64,000 nucleotides of DNA from Streptomyces sp. RKAG293 (GTDB lineage: Bacteria > Actinomycetota > Actinomycetes > Streptomycetales > Streptomycetaceae), in NCBI RefSeq assembly GCF_023701745.1, contig NZ_JAJOZB010000001.1:2300501-2364500 (forward strand), in the 5' to 3' direction. Position numbers and translations under genes: made by a program. Positions 38,464-54,336 of the stretch are shown here, piece after piece. How positions within the stretch are numbered: position 1 is the stretch's first letter; the number at the start of each line of letters is the position of its first letter. Under the pieces are notes generated by a model. It saw nothing but the letters and a program-made list of their open reading frames with translations. It had not been told where the DNA came from and did not search any database.

Positions 38464-41400
38464 CTACGCGCAGCTGAACTTCGCCGCGGCCCAGTCCCCG
38501 TGGTCACCGCTCTTGGAATTGTTGGTGTCGGTGATCTTCAGATGGACGTGGCGCGCCCCGCCGAGCGGGACGTCCACCGGCACGGTCGCGGAGGCGCCCG
38601 TCACCTTGGGCGAGGTCCACAGCACCTTGCCGTCGGCCTCGACCGAGAAGGCCACCTCCCCGTAGCCGTTGATCTCGTCGTCGATCCCGGCGTCCGCGGT
38701 GAAGCGGGTGCAGCGGCCGCCGGTGTACAGCTCGATGTCGGAGTCGGCGTGGGCACCGATCCCCTTGGGGTAGACCGTGCCCGCCAGGGTGATCGGATGA
38801 CCGTCCTCGGCACCCGACTCCCCGTTGCTGCGGTCGCGTTCGGGCGGCCCGTAGCCGTTCCCCTCGCCCAGCCACACCATGTCGCTCGCCCAGGTGTCGG
38901 CCACCGGCGGCCGTGGCATCGCGGAGACCGCGAACGGCTGCGCCGTCACCCGGTCCTGCCCGGTCGTCCGATAGGCGGCGGAGGCCGTCAGCACGGCCTC
39001 CCCCGGTGCCGCGTTCTGCGGCGGGGTGACGGTGACCTGGACCCGCCGGGTCGTCCCGGCGGGAATGCGGCCCACCGGCGCGGGGGCGGTCACCGACCAG
39101 CCTGCCGGTGCCTTCAGCGTCAGCTGGACGCCGGTGGCGTCCCTGCTGCCCGCCGTCACGTCCACCGGCACGGTGGCCGGCACGCCCGCGCCGACCTCCT
39201 GCGCCGGCGGCGACGACACGACGGCGGCGCTGCCCGGCGCCTTGCCGCCGAGCGCGCTCGCGCCCAGCAGCCGCAGGGCGAACGGCTTCGCGGTGCTCAG
39301 CGACTGGGTCTTGGCCTGCACCACGCCGCCCCGGTCGGCCGCGTCGAACCACCAGCCGCGCGAGGCCGCGTCGAAGGCGGCCTTGGAGGTGTACTTCGGC
39401 AGCGCGGCCCCGTCCAGCAGCAGACCGGCCGGCGCGTCACCGGTGTGCACGGTGAACTGGTACGGCCGTGCGGTCTGCTTGCCCTGGAAGGTTCCGTTGC
39501 TCGCGCCGACGTCGACGGTCACATCGCCGGCGCCGGACGACGGGGCCCGGACGGTGACCTTCTGCTGCGCGGACTTCCCGGCCCGGCTCTGCCGGGTGAC
39601 GCCGTCGTCCTCGTACAGCGTGAAGGAGGACGTGCCCTGCGGGTAGACGTCCCAGGCGACCGGCGAGGACGGGGTGCGGTCCTGGTAGGACCTGATGCCG
39701 GGCCACATCGGCACGGCGGCACCGGCCTTGACGAACAGCGGCAGGGTGCCCAGCGGCGCGCTGTAGCCGTTGACCGTGGTCGGGCCCTGGTAGACGCGGC
39801 CGGTCCAGTAGTCGGTCCAGGTGCCCTTCGGCAGATAGATGCCGTCGCGCACCGCGGTGTCCTGGTAGACCGGCGCCACGAGGAAGTCCTCGCCGGACAG
39901 GAACTCGTACTTCGCCGCGTCGGAGGCGGCCTTCGGGTCGTTCGGGTACTCCAGCGCGAGCGGCCGCACCTGGCCGACGCCGGTGCGGTTCGCCTCGGCC
40001 GAGTAGGAGTACGTGTACGGCAGCAGCGACTCCTTGAGCTTGAGGTACTGGCGGTTGATGGACGTGTACGGCTCCCCGTACTGGTACGGCTGCTTGTCGT
40101 TCGCGGCCCAGCCGTCCATCGTCATCACGGCCGGCAGGAAGGACTTCCACTCCAGGTCGCGGGTGTAGGTCTTGGGGCTGCCGCCGAAGATGCCGTCGAT
40201 GTCACCCGAGGTGTAGGCGAGGCCGGACATCGTGGCGCCCGCGTACGTCGGGATCTGCCAGCGGATGTACTCCCAGCTGCCCGACTGGTCGCCCGACCAC
40301 TGCACACCGCAGCGCTGCGCGCCCGACCAGCTCTCGGGGGCCCAGGTGAAGCCGCGGGCGTCGCTGTTGTCCTCGATGCCCTGGTAGGCGTCCTTGCAGC
40401 CGTCGAGGGCGAACTTGTAGCCGTCGCCGACCCACGCCACGTCGAGCTTGGCGATCCGCTGGCCGGCCTTGACCTGGTCGGCGAGCTTGTCGATGCCGTC
40501 CTCGGTCCACAGGCCGGTCTTCATCTTGCGGTCCTGGAGACCGGCGGAGGTCTGCGGGAGGTTCTCGTAGCCGCAGCCGTAGCCGTCGTTGACGAGCATC
40601 CAGCCGTTCGGCATGTCGTTCTTGACGTAGTCGTCGGCGACCTTGAGGGAGTCCAGGGTGTGCCGCTCGCCCCGGTTGGCGTTGTGCAGATAGCAGTCGG
40701 AGTCACCGACTTCGAGCCCGTACACGGGCGGCAGGAAGGGGCGGCCGGTCAGCTGGGTGTACTGGCCGATGACGTCCTTGGCCGACGGTCCCGCGAAGTA
40801 GTACGCGTCGAAGCGGTTCTCCTGCTCGGTCGTCGCCACCGGATCGGTGAAGGCGTACGTGCCGGGCGCGTAGGTGTTGCGGAAGGCGCCGTAGCCGGCC
40901 GTGGACAGGTAGAACGGGACGGAGTTGGGGTGCCCGCCGTCGTTCCAGTTGTCGTCCACGCCGACCTCGACGGTCTGGCCGCGGTGCGAGGTGTTGCCGC
41001 GGCCGTTCTGCATTCCGGCGCCGTAGAACTGCTCGGTGGCGCCGCGCTCCAGGGTCTGGGTGGTCCTGGTGCCGTTCCACGTCAGGCCCTTGGACTCGGC
41101 CCAGACCTTGGTGCCGTCGGCGCGGTAGAGGGCGAAGCGCAGCGGTGACTTGTACGCGCGCAGGGTGACCTGCGAGGTACTCAGCTCGTACCGGTCACCC
41201 GCGTCCCGCCACCGGGTGACGGGCGCGGCGCCCTGCGGCAGCACGATGTCGCTGCCGGTGGGGTCGCTGAACTTCCCGTCGGGCGCGAGCTCCACCCGGA
41301 ACGTCTGCCCGGACACGAAGGTGACCCGGGCCTCGGCCTGGCCGGCCGTCAGATGGTAGACGGGCCCGGCGGCGGAGAATCCGGTCAGGTTCCCGACGGT

Positions 41401-41526
41401 GCTGTCGGCGGGCGCGGCGGCGTGGGCCGTGCCCGGGACCGGGACGAGGAGGGCCACGAGCAGGCCCAGCAACACGATCAGTGGTATCGCCGACATTCTG
41501 CGACGTTCTTGAGCATCCCTGTGCAT
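38464..41526 (-). CDS. Secreted GH31 glycosidase with NEW3-like and NPCBM domains
   Basis: The 1020-residue protein has a Sec signal (MSAIPLIVLLGLLVALLVPVPGTAHA). The GH31 barrel has nucleophile Asp in AKLDVAWVG and acid/base Asp in TSGDIDGIFGGS. These variants resemble the alpha-galactosidase-like GH31 branch more than alpha-glucosidases (W-x-D-M-N-E). A beta domain, a NEW3-type alpha-galactosidase-associated domain (about 775-865) and a C-terminal NPCBM carbohydrate-binding module (about 885-1020) follow. I place the start at the ATG with GGAGAGG five bases upstream; a GTG six bases earlier is also open. It probably frees sugars outside the cell. Confidence 0.88.
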   Translation of the reverse strand: MHRDAQERRRMSAIPLIVLLGLLVALLVPVPGTAHAAAPADSTVGNLTGFSAAGPVYHLTAGQAEARVTFVSGQTFRVELAPDGKFSDPTGSDIVLPQGAAPVTRWRDAGDRYELSTSQVTLRAYKSPLRFALYRADGTKVWAESKGLTWNGTRTTQTLERGATEQFYGAGMQNGRGNTSHRGQTVEVGVDDNWNDGGHPNSVPFYLSTAGYGAFRNTYAPGTYAFTDPVATTEQENRFDAYYFAGPSAKDVIGQYTQLTGRPFLPPVYGLEVGDSDCYLHNANRGERHTLDSLKVADDYVKNDMPNGWMLVNDGYGCGYENLPQTSAGLQDRKMKTGLWTEDGIDKLADQVKAGQRIAKLDVAWVGDGYKFALDGCKDAYQGIEDNSDARGFTWAPESWSGAQRCGVQWSGDQSGSWEYIRWQIPTYAGATMSGLAYTSGDIDGIFGGSPKTYTRDLEWKSFLPAVMTMDGWAANDKQPYQYGEPYTSINRQYLKLKESLLPYTYSYSAEANRTGVGQVRPLALEYPNDPKAASDAAKYEFLSGEDFLVAPVYQDTAVRDGIYLPKGTWTDYWTGRVYQGPTTVNGYSAPLGTLPLFVKAGAAVPMWPGIRSYQDRTPSSPVAWDVYPQGTSSFTLYEDDGVTRQSRAGKSAQQKVTVRAPSSGAGDVTVDVGASNGTFQGKQTARPYQFTVHTGDAPAGLLLDGAALPKYTSKAAFDAASRGWWFDAADRGGVVQAKTQSLSTAKPFALRLLGASALGGKAPGSAAVVSSPPAQEVGAGVPATVPVDVTAGSRDATGVQLTLKAPAGWSVTAPAPVGRIPAGTTRRVQVTVTPPQNAAPGEAVLTASAAYRTTGQDRVTAQPFAVSAMPRPPVADTWASDMVWLGEGNGYGPPERDRSNGESGAEDGHPITLAGTVYPKGIGAHADSDIELYTGGRCTRFTADAGIDDEINGYGEVAFSVEADGKVLWTSPKVTGASATVPVDVPLGGARHVHLKITDTNNSKSGDHGDWAAAKFSCA

Positions 41527-41551
41527 GAACACCTCTCCGGCTGCACTTGCG

Positions 41552-46747: not shown

Positions 46748-46861
46748 GCAGAATCCCAGCGATCCGGTCGAGCCTCCTCATCCCGCACTGTCTTACCTCC
46801 TGGGTAAGGTGCAACGGGGGCTGAGGGGCCAACGAGGCCGTGAATCGCGAAGCAGGTGGAC

Positions 46862-47467
46862 ATGTTCAGCAAGGCGACGAGGAGCCGCCCGACCACGCGC
46901 CGGTCGGGTCCGGCGGGGTCGGACTGGTCGCCGTACGAGCGCCTCGAGGACGCGTCGGACGCCTACTTCCTGCACGCGGACGTCGCGTTGGACGCGATCA
47001 GGGGGGTGCTCGGACGCCGCAAGGTCCTCGGTTTCACCCTGGAGCGGGTGGTGGATCTGACGGAGGCCGGGACCTCGGTCTGGCAGGAGGCGGCGGTCTG
47101 CGACGGCCGGCGGCTGATCCTGTGGCACAGCGAGGAGTTGGCCGACGACAGCGCACCCGGCGGGACCGTGCTGGACTCGTCGGTGCAGGTGCTCCCGCTG
47201 AACTCGATCGGCCATGTCGGGATGCGGACGCTGGTCGGCAGGAACGAGCAGGGGGTGCGCGTCGACCGCGGGGTGTACCTGGTGCTCGCGACGTCGATGC
47301 CGCACGAGTTGAGCGCCGTGCAGGGCGATCCGGACTCACCGGTCGCCGCCGCCCGCTTCCGTCCTGAGGCGTTCCGCTTCAGCAAGTCGCTCGACGACGG
47401 CGGACCGGGCCAGATAGCCCGGCTCGTCGCGTTCGGACGACTGCTGGGACGGCTGGTGCCCAGCTGA
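46862..47467 (+). CDS. Conserved hypothetical protein
   Basis: I do not recognise this 201-residue protein. It has a basic N terminus (MFSKATRSRPTTRRSG), then a mostly beta, PH-like-looking body (SDAYFLHADVALDAIRGVLGRRKVLGFTLERVVDLTEAGTSVWQEAAVCDGRRLILWHSEEL) and a C-terminal helix. There is no signal peptide or membrane helix. Codon use is normal for the genome. The ATG at 46862 has AGCAGG five bases upstream; a GTG two codons earlier is possible. It converges on the LLM oxidoreductase gene. Confidence 0.75.
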   Translation: MFSKATRSRPTTRRSGPAGSDWSPYERLEDASDAYFLHADVALDAIRGVLGRRKVLGFTLERVVDLTEAGTSVWQEAAVCDGRRLILWHSEELADDSAPGGTVLDSSVQVLPLNSIGHVGMRTLVGRNEQGVRVDRGVYLVLATSMPHELSAVQGDPDSPVAAARFRPEAFRFSKSLDDGGPGQIARLVAFGRLLGRLVPS

Positions 47468-48589: not shown

Positions 48590-48715
48590 GCCGCTCCCCT
48601 TACTGATGAGTAACGTCTCTGTCACTCCGGACTTTAGCGCCATGGCGTGCTGCGCGCGCCTGTCGGGTTCGTCACTGCTGCCCAATCAGCCACTTCACCA
48701 GTAATCTCAGCGGTC

Positions 48716-49696
48716 ATGGAACAGAGGCACCTCGGGCGCACCGGGTTGCGCGTGTCGCGGCTCGGCCTGGGCACGCTCACGTGGGGGCGCTACACCGGGG
48801 AACGCGACGCGGCCGACCAGCTGAAGACGTTCTGGGAGGCGGGCGGCACGCTGGTGGACACCGCCGACGTCTACGCGGACGGCGGCGCGGAGTACGTGCT
48901 CGGGCGGCTCATCGAGGACTTCGTCCCCCGCGCGGATCTGGTGATCGCCACCAAGGCGGGCAGCGTGCCCGATCCCGACCGGCGCTTCGACTGCTCCCGC
49001 GGCCACCTGCTCTCGGCCCTCGACGCCTCCCTGCAGCGGCTCGGCACCGACTACGTCGACCTGTGGCAGGTGCACGCCTTCGATCCGGTCACCCCGCTCG
49101 ACGAAACGCTGCAGGCCCTCGACATCGCCGTCACCTCCGGCCGGGCGCGGTACGTCGGGGTGTCCAACTACTGCGGCTGGCAGCTCGCCAAGGCCGCGAC
49201 CTGGCAGCGCGCGGTGCCCGGCCGGACCCCGCTGGCGAGCACGCAGATGGAGTACTCGCTGCTGCAGCGCGGCATCGAGCGCGAGGTGCTGCCGGCCGCG
49301 CTCGATCTGGGCATCGGCCTGCTGCCGTCCTCCCCGCTGGGCCGGGGCGTGCTCACCGGCAAGTACCGCAGCGGCACGCCCGTCGAGTCGCGCGGCGGTT
49401 CGGAGGAGATGGCGGCCTTCGTCGACCCGTACCTCGACGACACCGCCCGGCTCATCGTCGACGCCGTCACCACCGCGGCCGACGGGCTCGCGGTCCGGCC
49501 GATGGACGTCGCGCTGGCCTGGGTCCGGGACCGGCCGGGAGTGACCGCGCCCATCGTCGGCGCGCGCAACGCGCAGCAGCTGGCGCAGGCATTGTCAGTG
49601 GAGGCCCTTAGTCTTCCGGGTGAGATCTGCCAGGCGCTGGACGATGTGTCGGCGCCGCTGCACCGCTACCCGGATCACGACTGGAGCACGCTCTGA
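48716..49696 (+). CDS. Aldo/keto reductase
   Basis: The 326-residue NADPH-dependent reductase starts MEQRHLGRTGLRVSRLGLGTLTWG and holds the catalytic set DTADVYADGGAEYVLG (Asp, Tyr), the lysine in IATKAG and the histidine in WQVHAFD. GVSNYCGWQLAKA and the cofactor-binding PIVGARNAQQL near the end complete the fold. The natural substrate is not evident. It is 50 bp upstream of the RecD2-like gene on the same strand and may be co-transcribed. Confidence 0.9.
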   Translation: MEQRHLGRTGLRVSRLGLGTLTWGRYTGERDAADQLKTFWEAGGTLVDTADVYADGGAEYVLGRLIEDFVPRADLVIATKAGSVPDPDRRFDCSRGHLLSALDASLQRLGTDYVDLWQVHAFDPVTPLDETLQALDIAVTSGRARYVGVSNYCGWQLAKAATWQRAVPGRTPLASTQMEYSLLQRGIEREVLPAALDLGIGLLPSSPLGRGVLTGKYRSGTPVESRGGSEEMAAFVDPYLDDTARLIVDAVTTAADGLAVRPMDVALAWVRDRPGVTAPIVGARNAQQLAQALSVEALSLPGEICQALDDVSAPLHRYPDHDWSTL

Positions 49697-49746: not shown

Positions 49747-52209
49747 GTGACCGAGGACCGCACCGACCAGGACGTCGCGACGCCCGGCGCCGACGGGCAA
49801 CCGCCCACGGCCCCCGCCCGCCTCGCCGAGACGGAGCGGGCCCAGGAGCGGGTCATAGACGATGCCGCCGCGCCGCTCGTCCCCGCCCCGGCCGCGCGGG
49901 CCGGCGCCCGTGCCAAGCCCGCGGTCGACCTGGCGGACCTCGCCGCCGCCATGCGCTCCATCGAACGCGGCGACAACCCCGCGGCCCCCGCCCCCAAGGG
50001 CGATGCCGCGGCCGCCCGCCGCAAGCGCCGCGACGCGATGGCCGCGGAGGCGGCGAAGCTCCAGGCCGCCGAGGCGGCGGCCGCGGCGGGCGGTCCGGTG
50101 CCGGGGGCCGACGTCGCCGAGGTTGCCGAGGTTACGGAGGGGGCCGGAGCAGCGGAGGGGGCTCAGGGTTCCGAGGGTTCGGACGGTTCCGAGGGTTCCG
50201 AGGGGGCGGACGAGTCGGCTGTCGCCGATGGTCCGGAGGCCGCCGCTGCGGAAGATCAGGACGCTGCGGAGTCGGCGCCCGACGGGTCCGCCGATCCCTC
50301 TGAACCGCCCGCGCCTTCGGAGACGGAGGCGGAGAGCCCCGACGACGCCGGGGAGGACGAGCCCGAGGAGGTCGTCGCGGCCGAACCCGTTGCGGCCCCG
50401 GCTCCAGCCGCAGTCCCCGCTGAACGGCCGGTCCGGGAGCGGGCGGAACGCGAACCGGTCCGTCTCGCGCGGGTGCCGGTGGTGTACGACCCGGCCGCCG
50501 TCGAGGCGGTGCGGGCCGTGCTGGCCGAGGGCGGGGCGCCCGCGGAGCTGGCCGAACCCGCGGTGGCGGCGCTCGGCGAACGGGCGGCGCAGGCACTGCG
50601 CGAGGATCCGTGGCAGGTGCTGTCGCTGGCCGGCGTGCGGGTCGAGCACGCGGACGGGTTCGCGCGGGCGCTGCTCGGCGGCGAGTGCGGGCCAGACGAC
50701 GAGCGCCGCGTACGGGCCCTGGTCGTGTGGCTGTTGGAGCGGGCCGCCGAGCAGGGGCACACCGCCCTCGAATCGTCCGTGCTGCGCACCGCGCTGGAGA
50801 AGCAGTCGGTCTCCGGCGCCGAGGAAGGACTGAGCGCCGCCATCGCCGAGGGCCGCGTGCTGGTGTTCCAGGACGCCGAGGACGTCCCCGGGGCGAAGCC
50901 CGCCGCGACGGACGAGGGGGACGAGGGGCCGCCGGTCCGGCTGCTGCTCGGCCTCGACCGGTACGCGCTCGCCGAGGAGAGCCTCGCGGACGGCCTGGAC
51001 CGGCTGCTCAAGACCTTCGAAGGCGACGATCTCGACTGGGAGTCGGCCGCGGCCGCCACGTCCTCGCCGTCCGCCGCCGCGCTGGTCCGTGCCGCCGCCG
51101 TCAGTGGTCTCGTCACGCACACCGGTGGCGAGGCGGCCCGTGCGGAGCCGGCCGCACTGGTCGCCGCGGCCCGGGAGCTGGGGCTGCGCGCGTATGCCGC
51201 CGCGTACACCGCGGAGGGCCGGCGACGGCTGGCCGCGCACCTCGGCGAGGACACCGCCGTCACCGTCGCCGGGCTGCTGTCCGGGCAGGAGGGTCCTGGC
51301 CGGGAGGCCGACGGGAGCCTGGCTCTGGACGTGCTGGCCGTGCTGGACGCCCCGCAGCTCGACGTGGAGCTCTCGGCCACGCTCGTCGAGGCCGTTCCCG
51401 ACGGCGCGCGGCTGGTCCTCAGCGGTGACCCCGGGGTGCTGTGGTCGGCCGGGCCCGGCCGGGCCTTCGCGGATCTGCTGGCGGCGAAGACCTGCCCGCA
51501 GGTGGCGTCCAGGACCCCGGACCCGGGGCCGATCGGCGAGCTGGTGTCGGGGATCGGCATCGGGGAGCTGACGGCGGTGGAGGCCCCCGGCAAGGAGGTC
51601 GTCATCGTCCCGGTGCGCGACCCCCGCGAGGCGGTGCACCGCGCGGTGCAGCTGGTCGCCGACTCGGTGCCGCGCGTCATCGGGGTGCCCGCCACGGAGA
51701 CCCAGGTCATCACGCCGGGCCACGGCGGCGCCGTCGGCACCCAGGTGCTGAACGCGGCGCTCAAGGAACGGCTCAATCCCGGCCCGGGCCGGTTCGGCGG
51801 CTTCGACCCGGGCGACCGGGTGGTGTACGCGCCGGAGCCGGGCCTGACGCTGCCCGGCACGGTGCTGTCGGCCGATCCCGAGGGTCTGAACCTGGACTGC
51901 GCGGGCACCCGGGTCCTCGTACCGCGCGACCAGGTGGCGGCGCTGCGGCACGGATGGGCGATGACGGCACAGCAGTCCGCCGGGCTCCGCTGGCCCGCCG
52001 TGGTCGTGGTGCTGCCGGGCGACGCGGTGCAGGCGCTGACCCGTGCGTGGGTCTACACGGCCTTCGGCCGGGGCGAGCGCCACCTCTCGGTGGTGCAGGG
52101 CGCCGATCAGGGCCTGGCCCAGGCGGTGGCCGGCATCCCGGCGAAGGACCGTACGACCCGGTTGCGTTCGGTGCTGCGCGAGCAGGCGCGCGAGCAGGCG
52201 GCGGAGTGA
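49747..52209 (+). CDS. RecD2-like helix-hairpin-helix protein with degenerate helicase motifs
   Basis: The 820-residue protein can be followed along the RecD2 layout. Residues 1-240 form an acidic, Ala/Glu-rich disordered region. A helix-hairpin-helix part spans about 250-370 (EDPWQVLSLAGVRVEHADGFARALL). ATPase core 1A/2A spans about 440-640, and an SH3-like/2B region runs to the end (FDPGDRVVYAPEPGLTLPGTVLS...AMTAQQSAGLRWPAVVVVLP). Catalytic residues are gone. The P-loop GGPGTGKT is GGEAARAE (460-467), the Walker B V-D-E-A-S is L-D-A-P-Q (D534-A535), and the arginine motif YTALTRA is YTAFGRG. It probably binds DNA without unwinding it. The GTG start has GGAGG upstream. Confidence 0.8.
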   Translation: MTEDRTDQDVATPGADGQPPTAPARLAETERAQERVIDDAAAPLVPAPAARAGARAKPAVDLADLAAAMRSIERGDNPAAPAPKGDAAAARRKRRDAMAAEAAKLQAAEAAAAAGGPVPGADVAEVAEVTEGAGAAEGAQGSEGSDGSEGSEGADESAVADGPEAAAAEDQDAAESAPDGSADPSEPPAPSETEAESPDDAGEDEPEEVVAAEPVAAPAPAAVPAERPVRERAEREPVRLARVPVVYDPAAVEAVRAVLAEGGAPAELAEPAVAALGERAAQALREDPWQVLSLAGVRVEHADGFARALLGGECGPDDERRVRALVVWLLERAAEQGHTALESSVLRTALEKQSVSGAEEGLSAAIAEGRVLVFQDAEDVPGAKPAATDEGDEGPPVRLLLGLDRYALAEESLADGLDRLLKTFEGDDLDWESAAAATSSPSAAALVRAAAVSGLVTHTGGEAARAEPAALVAAARELGLRAYAAAYTAEGRRRLAAHLGEDTAVTVAGLLSGQEGPGREADGSLALDVLAVLDAPQLDVELSATLVEAVPDGARLVLSGDPGVLWSAGPGRAFADLLAAKTCPQVASRTPDPGPIGELVSGIGIGELTAVEAPGKEVVIVPVRDPREAVHRAVQLVADSVPRVIGVPATETQVITPGHGGAVGTQVLNAALKERLNPGPGRFGGFDPGDRVVYAPEPGLTLPGTVLSADPEGLNLDCAGTRVLVPRDQVAALRHGWAMTAQQSAGLRWPAVVVVLPGDAVQALTRAWVYTAFGRGERHLSVVQGADQGLAQAVAGIPAKDRTTRLRSVLREQAREQAAE

Positions 52210-52214
52210 GCCGG

Positions 52215-52256
52215 GCCGGGGCGGACGGAAAAGCGTCCGCCCCGGCAATCGTTTTC
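52215..52256 (+). terminator. Intrinsic terminator of the RecD2-like gene
   Basis: A 13-bp perfect stem (52215-52227 with 52234-52246) with loop GAAAAG is followed by AATCGTTTT, close to a classical intrinsic terminator. Confidence 0.85.
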
Positions 52257-52276: not shown

Positions 52277-52350
52277 CGTCCGGCCCAGTTGTCCGGGGCC
52301 TTGGTCGTCCGGGGCCTTGGCCGTCCGGGCCCAGTCGTCCGGCTCTAGTT
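52277..52350. repeat. Degenerate 15-bp tandem repeat, five units
   Basis: Copies of about CGTCCGGGGCCTTGG start near 52277, 52291, 52306, 52322 and 52336. They run into the 3' end of the gene at 52345, whose last codons (LDPDN) fall in the final unit. Confidence 0.6.
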
Positions 52351-52953
52351 GTCCGGGTCGAGCGCGCTCAGCTCGTCGTCGAAGACCGAGCTGACGTCGA
52401 ACCGGCAGATGATCAGTTGGGGGTCGGCCTGATCGAACGGGGTGGCCAGCCAGTCCCCCGGATCGGCGGGCTCCGCGGCGGAGACCCACAGGGTCGAGTC
52501 GCCCTCCTCGAGCCCGAACTCCTTGTGCCGCTGGGCGATCTCGTCCGGCTCGTACTCGCCGAAGAGAATGCCGACGGCCGCGTTCACCCCGGTGTCAGGT
52601 CCGGAGTCGGCGTCGGCGACCCGGCGGGCCTGCAGCAGCAGCCGCTGCGGCTCCACGATGCTGTAGTCACGGCGGATCAGCACGCTGATCGCGGCAGGTT
52701 CATCGGAGCCCGCGTACTCGGGCAGCGTGTCACCGGACGGCACCTCGAAGGGCGTGACCTCGTCATAGGCGTCGTACAGCAGCTCGTCATAGGCCTCGGC
52801 GGCCGAAGCGAGATCGTCGAAAGCGGTGTAGACGGCGGGGTCGTCCTCCCCCGTCCGGTTCTCGATCGCCTCAAGGTGGCGGTCCAGCGCGGCTTTGACC
52901 GCCTCAGCGGCGGCACGTACCTCGGCAACGGTGGGCTGCACGTCATCAGACAT
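52345..52953 (-). CDS. Conserved acidic hypothetical protein
   Basis: I do not recognise this 202-residue acidic protein. The first 75 residues are helical, possibly coiled coil (VAEVRAAAEAVKAALDRHLEAIENRTGEDDPAVYTAFDDLASAAEAYDELLYDAYDEV). The rest looks like an alpha/beta domain (AISVLIRRDYSIVEPQRLLLQARR). There is no signal peptide. The start is the ATG at 52953. It is divergent from the DUF5703 gene, with 47 bp between them. Confidence 0.8.
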   Translation of the reverse strand: MSDDVQPTVAEVRAAAEAVKAALDRHLEAIENRTGEDDPAVYTAFDDLASAAEAYDELLYDAYDEVTPFEVPSGDTLPEYAGSDEPAAISVLIRRDYSIVEPQRLLLQARRVADADSGPDTGVNAAVGILFGEYEPDEIAQRHKEFGLEEGDSTLWVSAAEPADPGDWLATPFDQADPQLIICRFDVSSVFDDELSALDPDN

Positions 52954-53000
52954 GGTGCAGACGCTATCCGCACCAGGGCGTTGCCCGCACAATAGATGCG

Positions 53001-53301: not shown

Positions 53302-54336
53302 TCAGCGACGGGCGGCGCGGTTACGGCGGTAGAGCATCCCGCCGCCGAGCAGCAGCGCGGCGCTGGTCGGCAGCGCCATCCCGATCGCACCGGCGCCGGT
53401 GGCGGCCAGCTGAGCGGTCGGGTGGTGCGCGGCCGGAGCGTAGGGCGACGAGGGCCCGCCCGGGTTGGAGTGACCGGTGCCGGGGGTTCCGGGGTTACCC
53501 GGGGTGCCGGGGTTACCAGGCGTGCCGGGGTTACCAGGCGTGCCGGGGTTACCCGGGGTGCCGGGGTTGCCGGGGTTGCCAGGCTGACCCGGAGTGCCGG
53601 GATTACCGGGCGTTCCCGGGTTACCGGGCTGGCCGGGGTTGCCCGGAGTCCCCGGGTTGCCAGGAGTACCGGGGTTACCAGGCTGGCCAGGGTGACCGGG
53701 GTGCCCCGGATGTCCAGGCTGACCCGGGTGGCCGGGCTGACCGGGGTGGTTCGGCTGGCCCGGGTGATTCGGCTGGCCCGGGTGCCCCGGCGTGCCCGGG
53801 TTTCCGGGGTGACCCGGGTGACCCGGCGTGCCCGGGTTCCCCGGATGCCCAGGCTGGCCGGGGTTGTCGGGGCAGTCGTCGGAGCCGTGCGGCGCGTGCC
53901 ACTCCGTGTTCCCGCAGCCGTTGCCCATCGCGGGGTTGAGGGCGCCGATCACGGTGATGCTGTTGCCGCACGCGTTGACCGGAACGTCGACCGGAACCTG
54001 CGCCGAGTTGCCGGAGAGAACGCCGGGCGAGTGCGAGGCACCGCCGTGCGCCACCGCCCCGGAACCACCCGCTCCGCCCCGTCCGCCATGGCCCGAGACG
54101 TTCGCGCAGCTGTTGCCCATCGCCGGGTTCAGCAGCCCGATGACGTTCGCCGTGTTCCCGCACAGGTTCACCGGTACATGCACCGGCACCTGCACGTTGT
54201 TGCCCGACCCGACGCCCGGCGAGTCGGACGTGGTGCCGACGGCACCCGAGTCCGCAAACGCGAAGCCGCTGCCGGCAGCGAGAACGCCGCCCGTCGCGAC
54301 CACGGTGATCAGGCCCTTTTTCGCGACCTGTCGCAT
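53302..54336 (-). CDS. chpC: Long chaplin ChpC with collagen-like stalk and sortase signal
   Basis: The 344-residue surface protein has a Sec signal ([28 protein letters not shown]) and two chaplin domains at about 30-80 and 105-145 ([39 protein letters not shown] and a close copy). Each domain has two cysteines, as in amyloid-forming chaplins. About 43 X-P-G triplets follow (about 157-286). The end carries the sortase motif LAATG, a membrane helix and an Arg tail (YRRNRAARR), so it is anchored to the wall. It lies downstream of chpH as in S. coelicolor. The stalk is longer and more regular than in the long chaplins I know. Confidence 0.92.
53480..53865 (-). repeat. DNA repeat encoding the Gly-x-Pro stalk of ChpC
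   Basis: Nine-base units encode X-P-G with X = Asn, Thr, Gln or His, often joined into 18-base units encoding NPGTPG. The His-rich half is nearer the chaplin domains and the Asn/Thr-rich half nearer the wall anchor. Two units read X-P-N instead of X-P-G. Confidence 0.85.

Follow-up and report, generated by a model that had tools for sequence, protein, structure and literature searches.

Organization of the locus

The stretch of Streptomyces sp. RKAG293 DNA analysed here, 64,000 nucleotides in length and referred to as the window, contains at positions 49747-52209 of the forward strand a gene for a protein of 820 residues, which an initial annotation had described as a RecD2-like pseudohelicase. 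The gene begins with a GTG codon, and this start is backed by the conserved VTEDR/MTD beginning of close orthologues and by a GGAGG located just 5' of it. A frameshifted or mis-called reading frame was considered and ruled out, since GC content by codon position follows a coding pattern in both the tail and the core and the orthologues share the frame. Directly upstream, across a gap of 50 nt, lies an aldo/keto reductase gene on the same strand (48647..49696); no other neighbour accompanies the family as constantly. Just past the pseudohelicase stop codon there is an intrinsic-terminator-like hairpin of 13 pairs (52215..52246, forward strand), with a consensus match of 1 compared with a mean of 0.3 in shuffled sequences. 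A promoter scan of the kind used, which is uninformative in Streptomyces, returned no match. From the spacing and the consensus terminator, we infer a putative operon structure.

The genes of the window follow the order PAC2-type, large glycosidase-like, MshC-like, SCO1664, DUF3090, phosphomutase-like, CorA and a hypothetical gene, and then LLM oxidoreductase, aldo/keto reductase, the pseudohelicase gene and the terminator-like hairpin. The names PAC2, glycosidase, MshC, phosphomutase and DUF3090 are assignments by eye or from general background; the DUF3090 gene corresponds to TIGR03847 by NCBIfam. The large glycosidase-like gene (38464-41532, reverse strand), situated between the PAC2-type and MshC-like genes, appears by eye to encode a secreted protein. 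Two further proteins gave no Pfam or NCBIfam match, one of 203 residues between CorA and the LLM oxidoreductase (46856-47467, forward strand) and one of 215 residues downstream of the pseudohelicase (52345-52992, reverse strand), the latter being found downstream in all 11 Streptomycetaceae loci scored and in L136, L138, L140 and L144. A Chaplin-type protein (53302-54336, reverse strand) shows an unusual combination of ChpA-C matches in two stretches with collagen-like Gly-Xaa-Pro repeats (Pfam Collagen, 70 bits).

Sixty-two loci of the family were scored for neighbours, with one locus counted twice (L118/L157). Of these, 56 have an aldo/keto reductase gene upstream in the same orientation, all nine intact Frankiaceae-type loci among them. 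The gene centres are at most 3 kb apart in 52 cases, and in the other four the reductase is more than 4 kb away. The six loci that have no upstream reductase are the six intact loci of family f20 (6/6). SCO1664 is upstream in 51 of the 62 loci (on the opposite strand in 50 and on the same strand in L116; 5 of 6 in f20) and DUF3090 in 49 (2 of 6 in f20), and for both genes some of the stretches end before the expected position. SCO1664, DUF3090, LLM oxidoreductase and aldo/keto reductase occur upstream in identical order in the intact Frankiaceae-type loci and in the Streptomyces loci. This shared gene order identifies the intact and the dead genes as orthologues by position, and does so most clearly in the Frankiaceae-type loci.

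In a review (PMC4255298), SCO1664 is described as adjoining mshC (SCO1663), and parJ corresponds to SCO1662. This placement together with the gene order in the window would put the S. coelicolor counterpart near SCO1671. The genes SCO1669-SCO1673, among which the counterparts were guessed to lie, are named in no open-licence paper that we found, and a literature search on RecD2, Streptomyces and pseudohelicases, limited to open-licence papers and including PMC1193525, gave no description of the protein; such absences are weak evidence.

Homology and predicted fold

The NCBIfam RecD2 model (TIGR01448) matches residues 251-808 of the window protein with an E-value of 6.6e-36, and the whole-protein score of 123.7 bits lies under the curated cut-off of 500 bits. 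The match starts at position 137 of the 713 positions of the model, leaving the earlier part unmatched, and the extended N-terminal region that precedes HHH_RecD2 in RecD2 is missing. Amongst the Pfam domains, HHH_RecD2 (PF14490; residues 252-339, 50500..50763, forward strand) scores above its cut-off, and UvrD_C_2 and AAA_19 both fall under theirs. A phmmer comparison with the D. radiodurans RecD2 3e1s gave an E-value of 3.3e-17, and homology to active helicases spans the whole core from the HHH domain onward, the 2B/SH3-like insert included (residues 685-733; 51799..51945, forward strand). A look-up of plasmid-record annotations (10 of 118 records) gave partial matches only, at ~30% identity, the annotated ones being RecD-like helicases.

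The AlphaFold model of the core, built with 34 alignment rows, has a pLDDT of 90.9 and a pTM of 0.90. Foldseek placed RecD2 at ranks 1-3. With VIA-align the model superposed on 3e1s with a Z of 32.8 (rmsd 2.7 over 489 aligned residues), on 3gp8 with a Z of 31.4 and on 3gpl with a Z of 30.5, followed by RecD of RecBCD with a Z near 20; for the model of an intact Frankiaceae orthologue, the corresponding Z against 3e1s was 42.8. The predicted structure thus has the RecD2 succession HHH, 1A, 2A and 2B, and both the superposition and the end-to-end alignment from the HHH domain bear out the earlier proposal that the protein is RecD2-like from its helix-hairpin-helix to 2B.

Degeneration of the ATPase motifs

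Motif columns were read from an alignment of the window protein with the canonical RecD2 of the same genome (all coordinates on the forward strand). The former motif I, or P-loop, has gone from GGPGCGKSFT to GGEAARAE (residues 460-467; 51124..51147), losing both Lys and Ser/Thr; motif II, or Walker B, from VVVDEASMLD to LAVLDAPQLD (residues 530-539; 51334..51363), losing the Asp-Glu pair; and motif III from GDVDQLPSVG to GDPGVLWSAG (residues 560-569; 51424..51453), where the GD pair is still present and the Gln is gone. The Gln of motif IV is also gone (LTRIFRQAQ to SRTPD), motif V reads TAQQSAGLR in place of TIHRSQGSE (residues 740-748; 51964..51990), and motif VI survives as a remnant with its Arg present (YTAVTRAKR to YTAFGRGER; residues 770-778; 52054..52080). 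The window protein therefore lacks the intact Walker A and Walker B motifs of RecD2. The statement in the initial annotation that all ATPase motifs are lost holds for the Walker A Lys, the Walker B Asp-Glu and the Gln residues of motifs III and IV, but has to be corrected for motif VI.

Motif residues were counted in 147 aligned rows, from which three divergent or partial rows, all degenerate (L051, L073 and L130), were dropped; because the choice of rows, made partly by hand, favours the best or strong matches, the counts are no random sample. The P-loop Lys occurs in none of the 67 Streptomycetaceae rows and in 6 of all 115 degenerate rows, the Walker B Asp in 0/67 and 1/115, the Walker B Glu in 0/67 and 11/115, the motif III Gln in 0/67 and 12/115 and the motif IV Gln in 2/67 and 2/115, whereas each of these residues is found in 16/16 intact and 13/13 RecD2 rows. 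The motif VI Arg is present in 67/67 Streptomycetaceae, 81/115 degenerate, 15/16 intact and 13/13 RecD2 rows, the single intact exception being a row truncated ahead of motif VI. The P-loop Ser/Thr is absent from all 67 Streptomycetaceae rows; 60 of them have the His of motif V, which is Gln in the window protein itself. Catalytic residues are hence lost in every Streptomycetaceae orthologue aligned, as befits a pseudohelicase; none has intact Walker motifs, intact relatives being confined to other families, and chance or sequencing error as the source of the losses could be ruled out with 0/67 rows carrying the P-loop Lys or the Walker B Asp or Glu.

What remains of the motifs varies by lineage. 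One f3 genus has a P-loop-like APGIAKT, many f19 rows other than Thermomonospora still carry the Glu of Walker B and the Gln of motif III, and the Streptomycetaceae have kept the Arg of motifs IV and VI together with the His of motif V. The f3 members with APGIAKT are L054 (2029-3909), L055-L058 and L060, all of genus g5; in L054, motifs Ib and II are separated by a long insert of low complexity.

Distribution and history of the family

Searches of 61 genomes, of 394 genomes of the class, of 296 genomes of the phylum and of named genome contigs revealed a RecD2-like actinomycete family that is separate from canonical RecD2. Members with all motifs intact were found in Frankiaceae MAGs (L145-L148) and in families f9, f12, f14, f16, f20 and f50. 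Degenerate members, differing in kind, were found in Streptomycetaceae, f2, f3, Actinomadura/Thermomonospora and other f19 genomes. Within Streptomycetaceae (f1) the gene is present in 36 of 37 genomes of the 61-genome search and in 40 of 40 of the 394-genome search, amounting to 75 of 76 distinct genomes; the genome with no copy, G018, is in 670 contigs and is 1 of 34 genomes of the same genus. Beyond the class to which the window's genome belongs, no score in the phylum-wide search of 296 genomes exceeded 313 bits, roughly what canonical RecD2 reaches, and for this reason we claim the family, in these samples, only for that class.

A canonical RecD2 with every motif is encoded elsewhere in the same genome (839.7 bits), as the initial annotation had asked to be checked. 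The possibility that the window gene is a decayed copy of this RecD2 was ruled out, since the family forms a separate branch with intact members of its own and the RecD2 itself is intact. The earlier reading of a RecD2-fold pseudohelicase accordingly stands with respect to the motif changes, the separate RecD2 and the fold, with the amendment that the protein belongs to a distinct RecD2-like actinomycete family and is not a decayed RecD2. Two other kinds of locus were encountered during the searches. At L071 and L072 (G046 and G038; f3) a divergent helicase of the RecD2 type is encoded whose motifs are intact (GGPGCGKSHT), and G038 has it alongside a canonical RecD2 (L067). L178, near a chromosome end of Actinomadura sp. 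WMMA1423, is a second copy of the family broken up over three frames.

In a tree calculated without the motif columns, for which 69 of the 147 rows were thinned out and 78 retained, all 54 degenerate rows form one clade with an SH-aLRT of 100. A second tree leaving out the whole 341-590 region (305 columns, 75 rows; L050, L051 and L073, divergent or partial, omitted) gave the degenerate clade with 100/100 (bootstrap/SH-aLRT), and one state change suffices to explain it. Neither tree places an intact row inside the degenerate clade. Judged from these alignments, the simplest history would be a single ancestral loss of the ATPase in the common ancestor. The unlike remnants of the f3 genus, the f19 rows and the Streptomycetaceae leave room for a history in which each lineage went independently from active helicase to dead protein, yet this appears rather improbable, as one early loss followed by drift also yields differing remnants and the trees contain no intact row inside the degenerate clade.

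Selection and regional constraint

Comparison of the window gene with 16 Streptomycetaceae orthologues gave dN/dS values of 0.10-0.42 in all 16 cases. Together with the retention in 75 of 76 genomes, this demonstrates that the pseudohelicase is under purifying selection and is maintained by it. Across three of these genome pairs the dN/dS of the pseudohelicase was 0.25-0.40 compared with 0.10-0.11 for canonical RecD2; these values, 2.6 to 3.6 times as high, indicate a weaker constraint.

Identities between lineages were calculated on 62 hand-picked rows, RecD2 rows included, as were the charges given below. The identity of the 1A ATPase lobe is 0.33 among degenerate groups compared with 0.71 between two intact groups, and that of 2B is 0.35 compared with 0.62. 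The corresponding values for 2A are 0.55 and 0.67 in its first part and 0.53 and 0.79 in its second part, and those for the HHH domain are 0.50 and 0.47. The relaxation is local and strongest in the ATPase lobe, extending also to the 2B/SH3-like insert, and the constraint on the HHH domain is retained. Within 2A, the helix E628-G646 (51628..51684, forward strand) carries R632, Q635, D639, S640 and R643, which intact as well as degenerate members, the window protein included, have in common and canonical RecD2 does not. In 115 degenerate rows the frequency of R632, Q635, S640 and R643 is 1.00 and that of D639 is 0.97, and all five are at 1.00 in 16 intact rows.

Acidic tail, charge and DNA contact

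The long acidic N terminus noted earlier was confirmed as a low-complexity tail (49747..50466, forward strand; residues 1-225 with 49 D+E, 16 K+R, 68 A and 25 P), which occupies the place of an N-terminal HhH-like segment in the intact relatives; in L145 this segment matches Pfam HHH_5 at 5e-4, below the cut-off. Within the tail a short stretch is conserved, LAAAMRSIERGDNPA (residues 65-79; 49939..49983, forward strand), which reads LAAAVRAIERGE.P or LLAAVRAVESG.KP elsewhere in the Streptomycetaceae and is a possible interaction motif.

The net charge of the core is -26 to -33 in the degenerate groups (about -26 in the window protein) compared with -3.6 in canonical RecD2, and the intact members of the family, at -16 and -22, are acidic too. 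In SF1B helicases the positions Ib His, Ib Arg, IVa Arg/Lys and V Gln are typical of contact with ssDNA; in the degenerate rows they are retained in 22/115, 23/115, 4/115 and 4/115 cases, respectively. With these presumed contact positions mostly lost and the core acidic, it seems unlikely that the pseudohelicase tracks along ssDNA as RecD2 does. Contact with DNA through the HHH domain is plausible.

Interpretation and alternatives

Taken together, the protein is best regarded as a pseudohelicase, the form which a RecD2-like SF1B helicase of actinomycetes has taken in Streptomycetaceae and their relatives after losing its ATPase, and which has been kept as a folded, non-catalytic protein, a reading to which we assign a probability of about three in four. 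The preservation of a dead version across Streptomyces suggests that it probably performs a useful job free of ATP. The ancestor would have been an active helicase of this family whose ability to bind and hydrolyse ATP disappeared, most simply in a single event, and the folded protein may then have been retained as a scaffold or adaptor. It would act through surfaces that are still constrained: the HHH domain, the C-terminal block and the helix of 2A near residues 628-646, to which the short motif conserved in the Streptomyces tail might be added. An ATP-independent part of the ancestral job could thereby have been carried on, for example the recruiting or positioning of a partner at DNA in the manner of the D. 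radiodurans PriA.

A different use of the RecD2 fold can be envisaged, in which the protein has left DNA altogether and acts as a protein-protein scaffold with the adjoining aldo/keto reductase or with a neighbouring factor. The same-strand reductase upstream in 56 of 62 loci, the narrow gap and the terminator-like hairpin in the window, the acidic core with its loss of the typical ssDNA-contact residues and the conserved tail motif are all in keeping with this, but the pairing with the reductase is older than the ATPase loss, being present in the 9/9 intact Frankiaceae-type loci, and may therefore be inherited gene order. Moreover, the reductase is missing upstream in the 6/6 intact f20 loci and lies more than 4 kb off in 4 of 56 loci, and the HHH domain has retained its constraint, so that we regard such a departure from DNA as unlikely, though worth keeping in view. 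Equally tentative is a more specific picture in which a helicase became a near-universal scaffold in an actinomycete clade, using no ATP and not tracking DNA, with the tail and the 2A helix as its anchor and, as partner, the reductase or a chromosome-segregation or thiol-metabolism factor from the parJ-mshC block.

Two further alternatives carry very little weight. A functionless, decaying relic might be suspected from the missing ATPase motifs, the weaker constraint relative to canonical RecD2 and the fast divergence of the 1A and SH3 parts; such a fate is very improbable given the retention in 75 of 76 Streptomycetaceae genomes, the dN/dS of 0.10-0.42, the confident and complete predicted fold and the residues that are invariant across degenerate lineages. 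Slightly less credible still is an active translocase with a non-canonical mode of binding ATP or another nucleotide: the motif VI Arg of all 67 Streptomycetaceae rows and the surviving GD of motif III would suit it, but the P-loop Lys and Ser/Thr, the Walker B Asp and Glu and the motif III Gln are missing from all 67 rows, and the motif IV Gln from 65 of them.

To our knowledge, pseudohelicases are known mostly as single cases. In the present family a single bacterial class holds active and dead forms that are orthologous by position, so that swapping the versions could separate the ATP-independent role of the ancestral gene from that of the motor. It also adds to the parJ-mshC chromosomal neighbourhood of Streptomyces a near-universal gene that is undescribed in the literature searched.

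Comparison with known systems

The SF1B DNA helicase RecD2 (TIGR01448; D. radiodurans 3e1s, 3gp8 and 3gpl) shares with the window protein the layout of HHH_RecD2, 1A, 2A and 2B/SH3, at Z values of 30.5-32.8. It differs in its ATPase motifs, gone from the window protein, whose 123.7 bits fall short of the cut-off of 500, and in being encoded as a separate canonical protein in the same genome. Closer relatives are the intact RecD2-like members from Frankiaceae MAGs and other actinomycete families (for example L145, L104 and L113), which have the gene neighbourhood and R632, Q635, D639, S640 and R643 in common with the window protein, with 41-43% identity to its core in the Frankiaceae members L145-L147. 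Unlike the window protein they possess all motifs and the N-terminal HhH-like segment; L145, at 405.7 bits on TIGR01448, is likewise under the 500-bit cut-off.

AddB and RecC contain inactivated helicase- or nuclease-like domains, in which an enzyme fold persists without working motifs, and act as subunits of nuclease complexes. The window protein resembles them in keeping the fold of an enzyme with motifs that no longer work; however, the steady neighbour of its gene is an aldo/keto reductase. The nearest working precedent is the D. radiodurans PriA, a conserved replication/repair helicase for which PMC4504706 reports the loss of ATPase, retained DNA binding and evidence of interaction with DnaB. 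It is of the PriA type and not a RecD2, and its DNA binding is a measured property.
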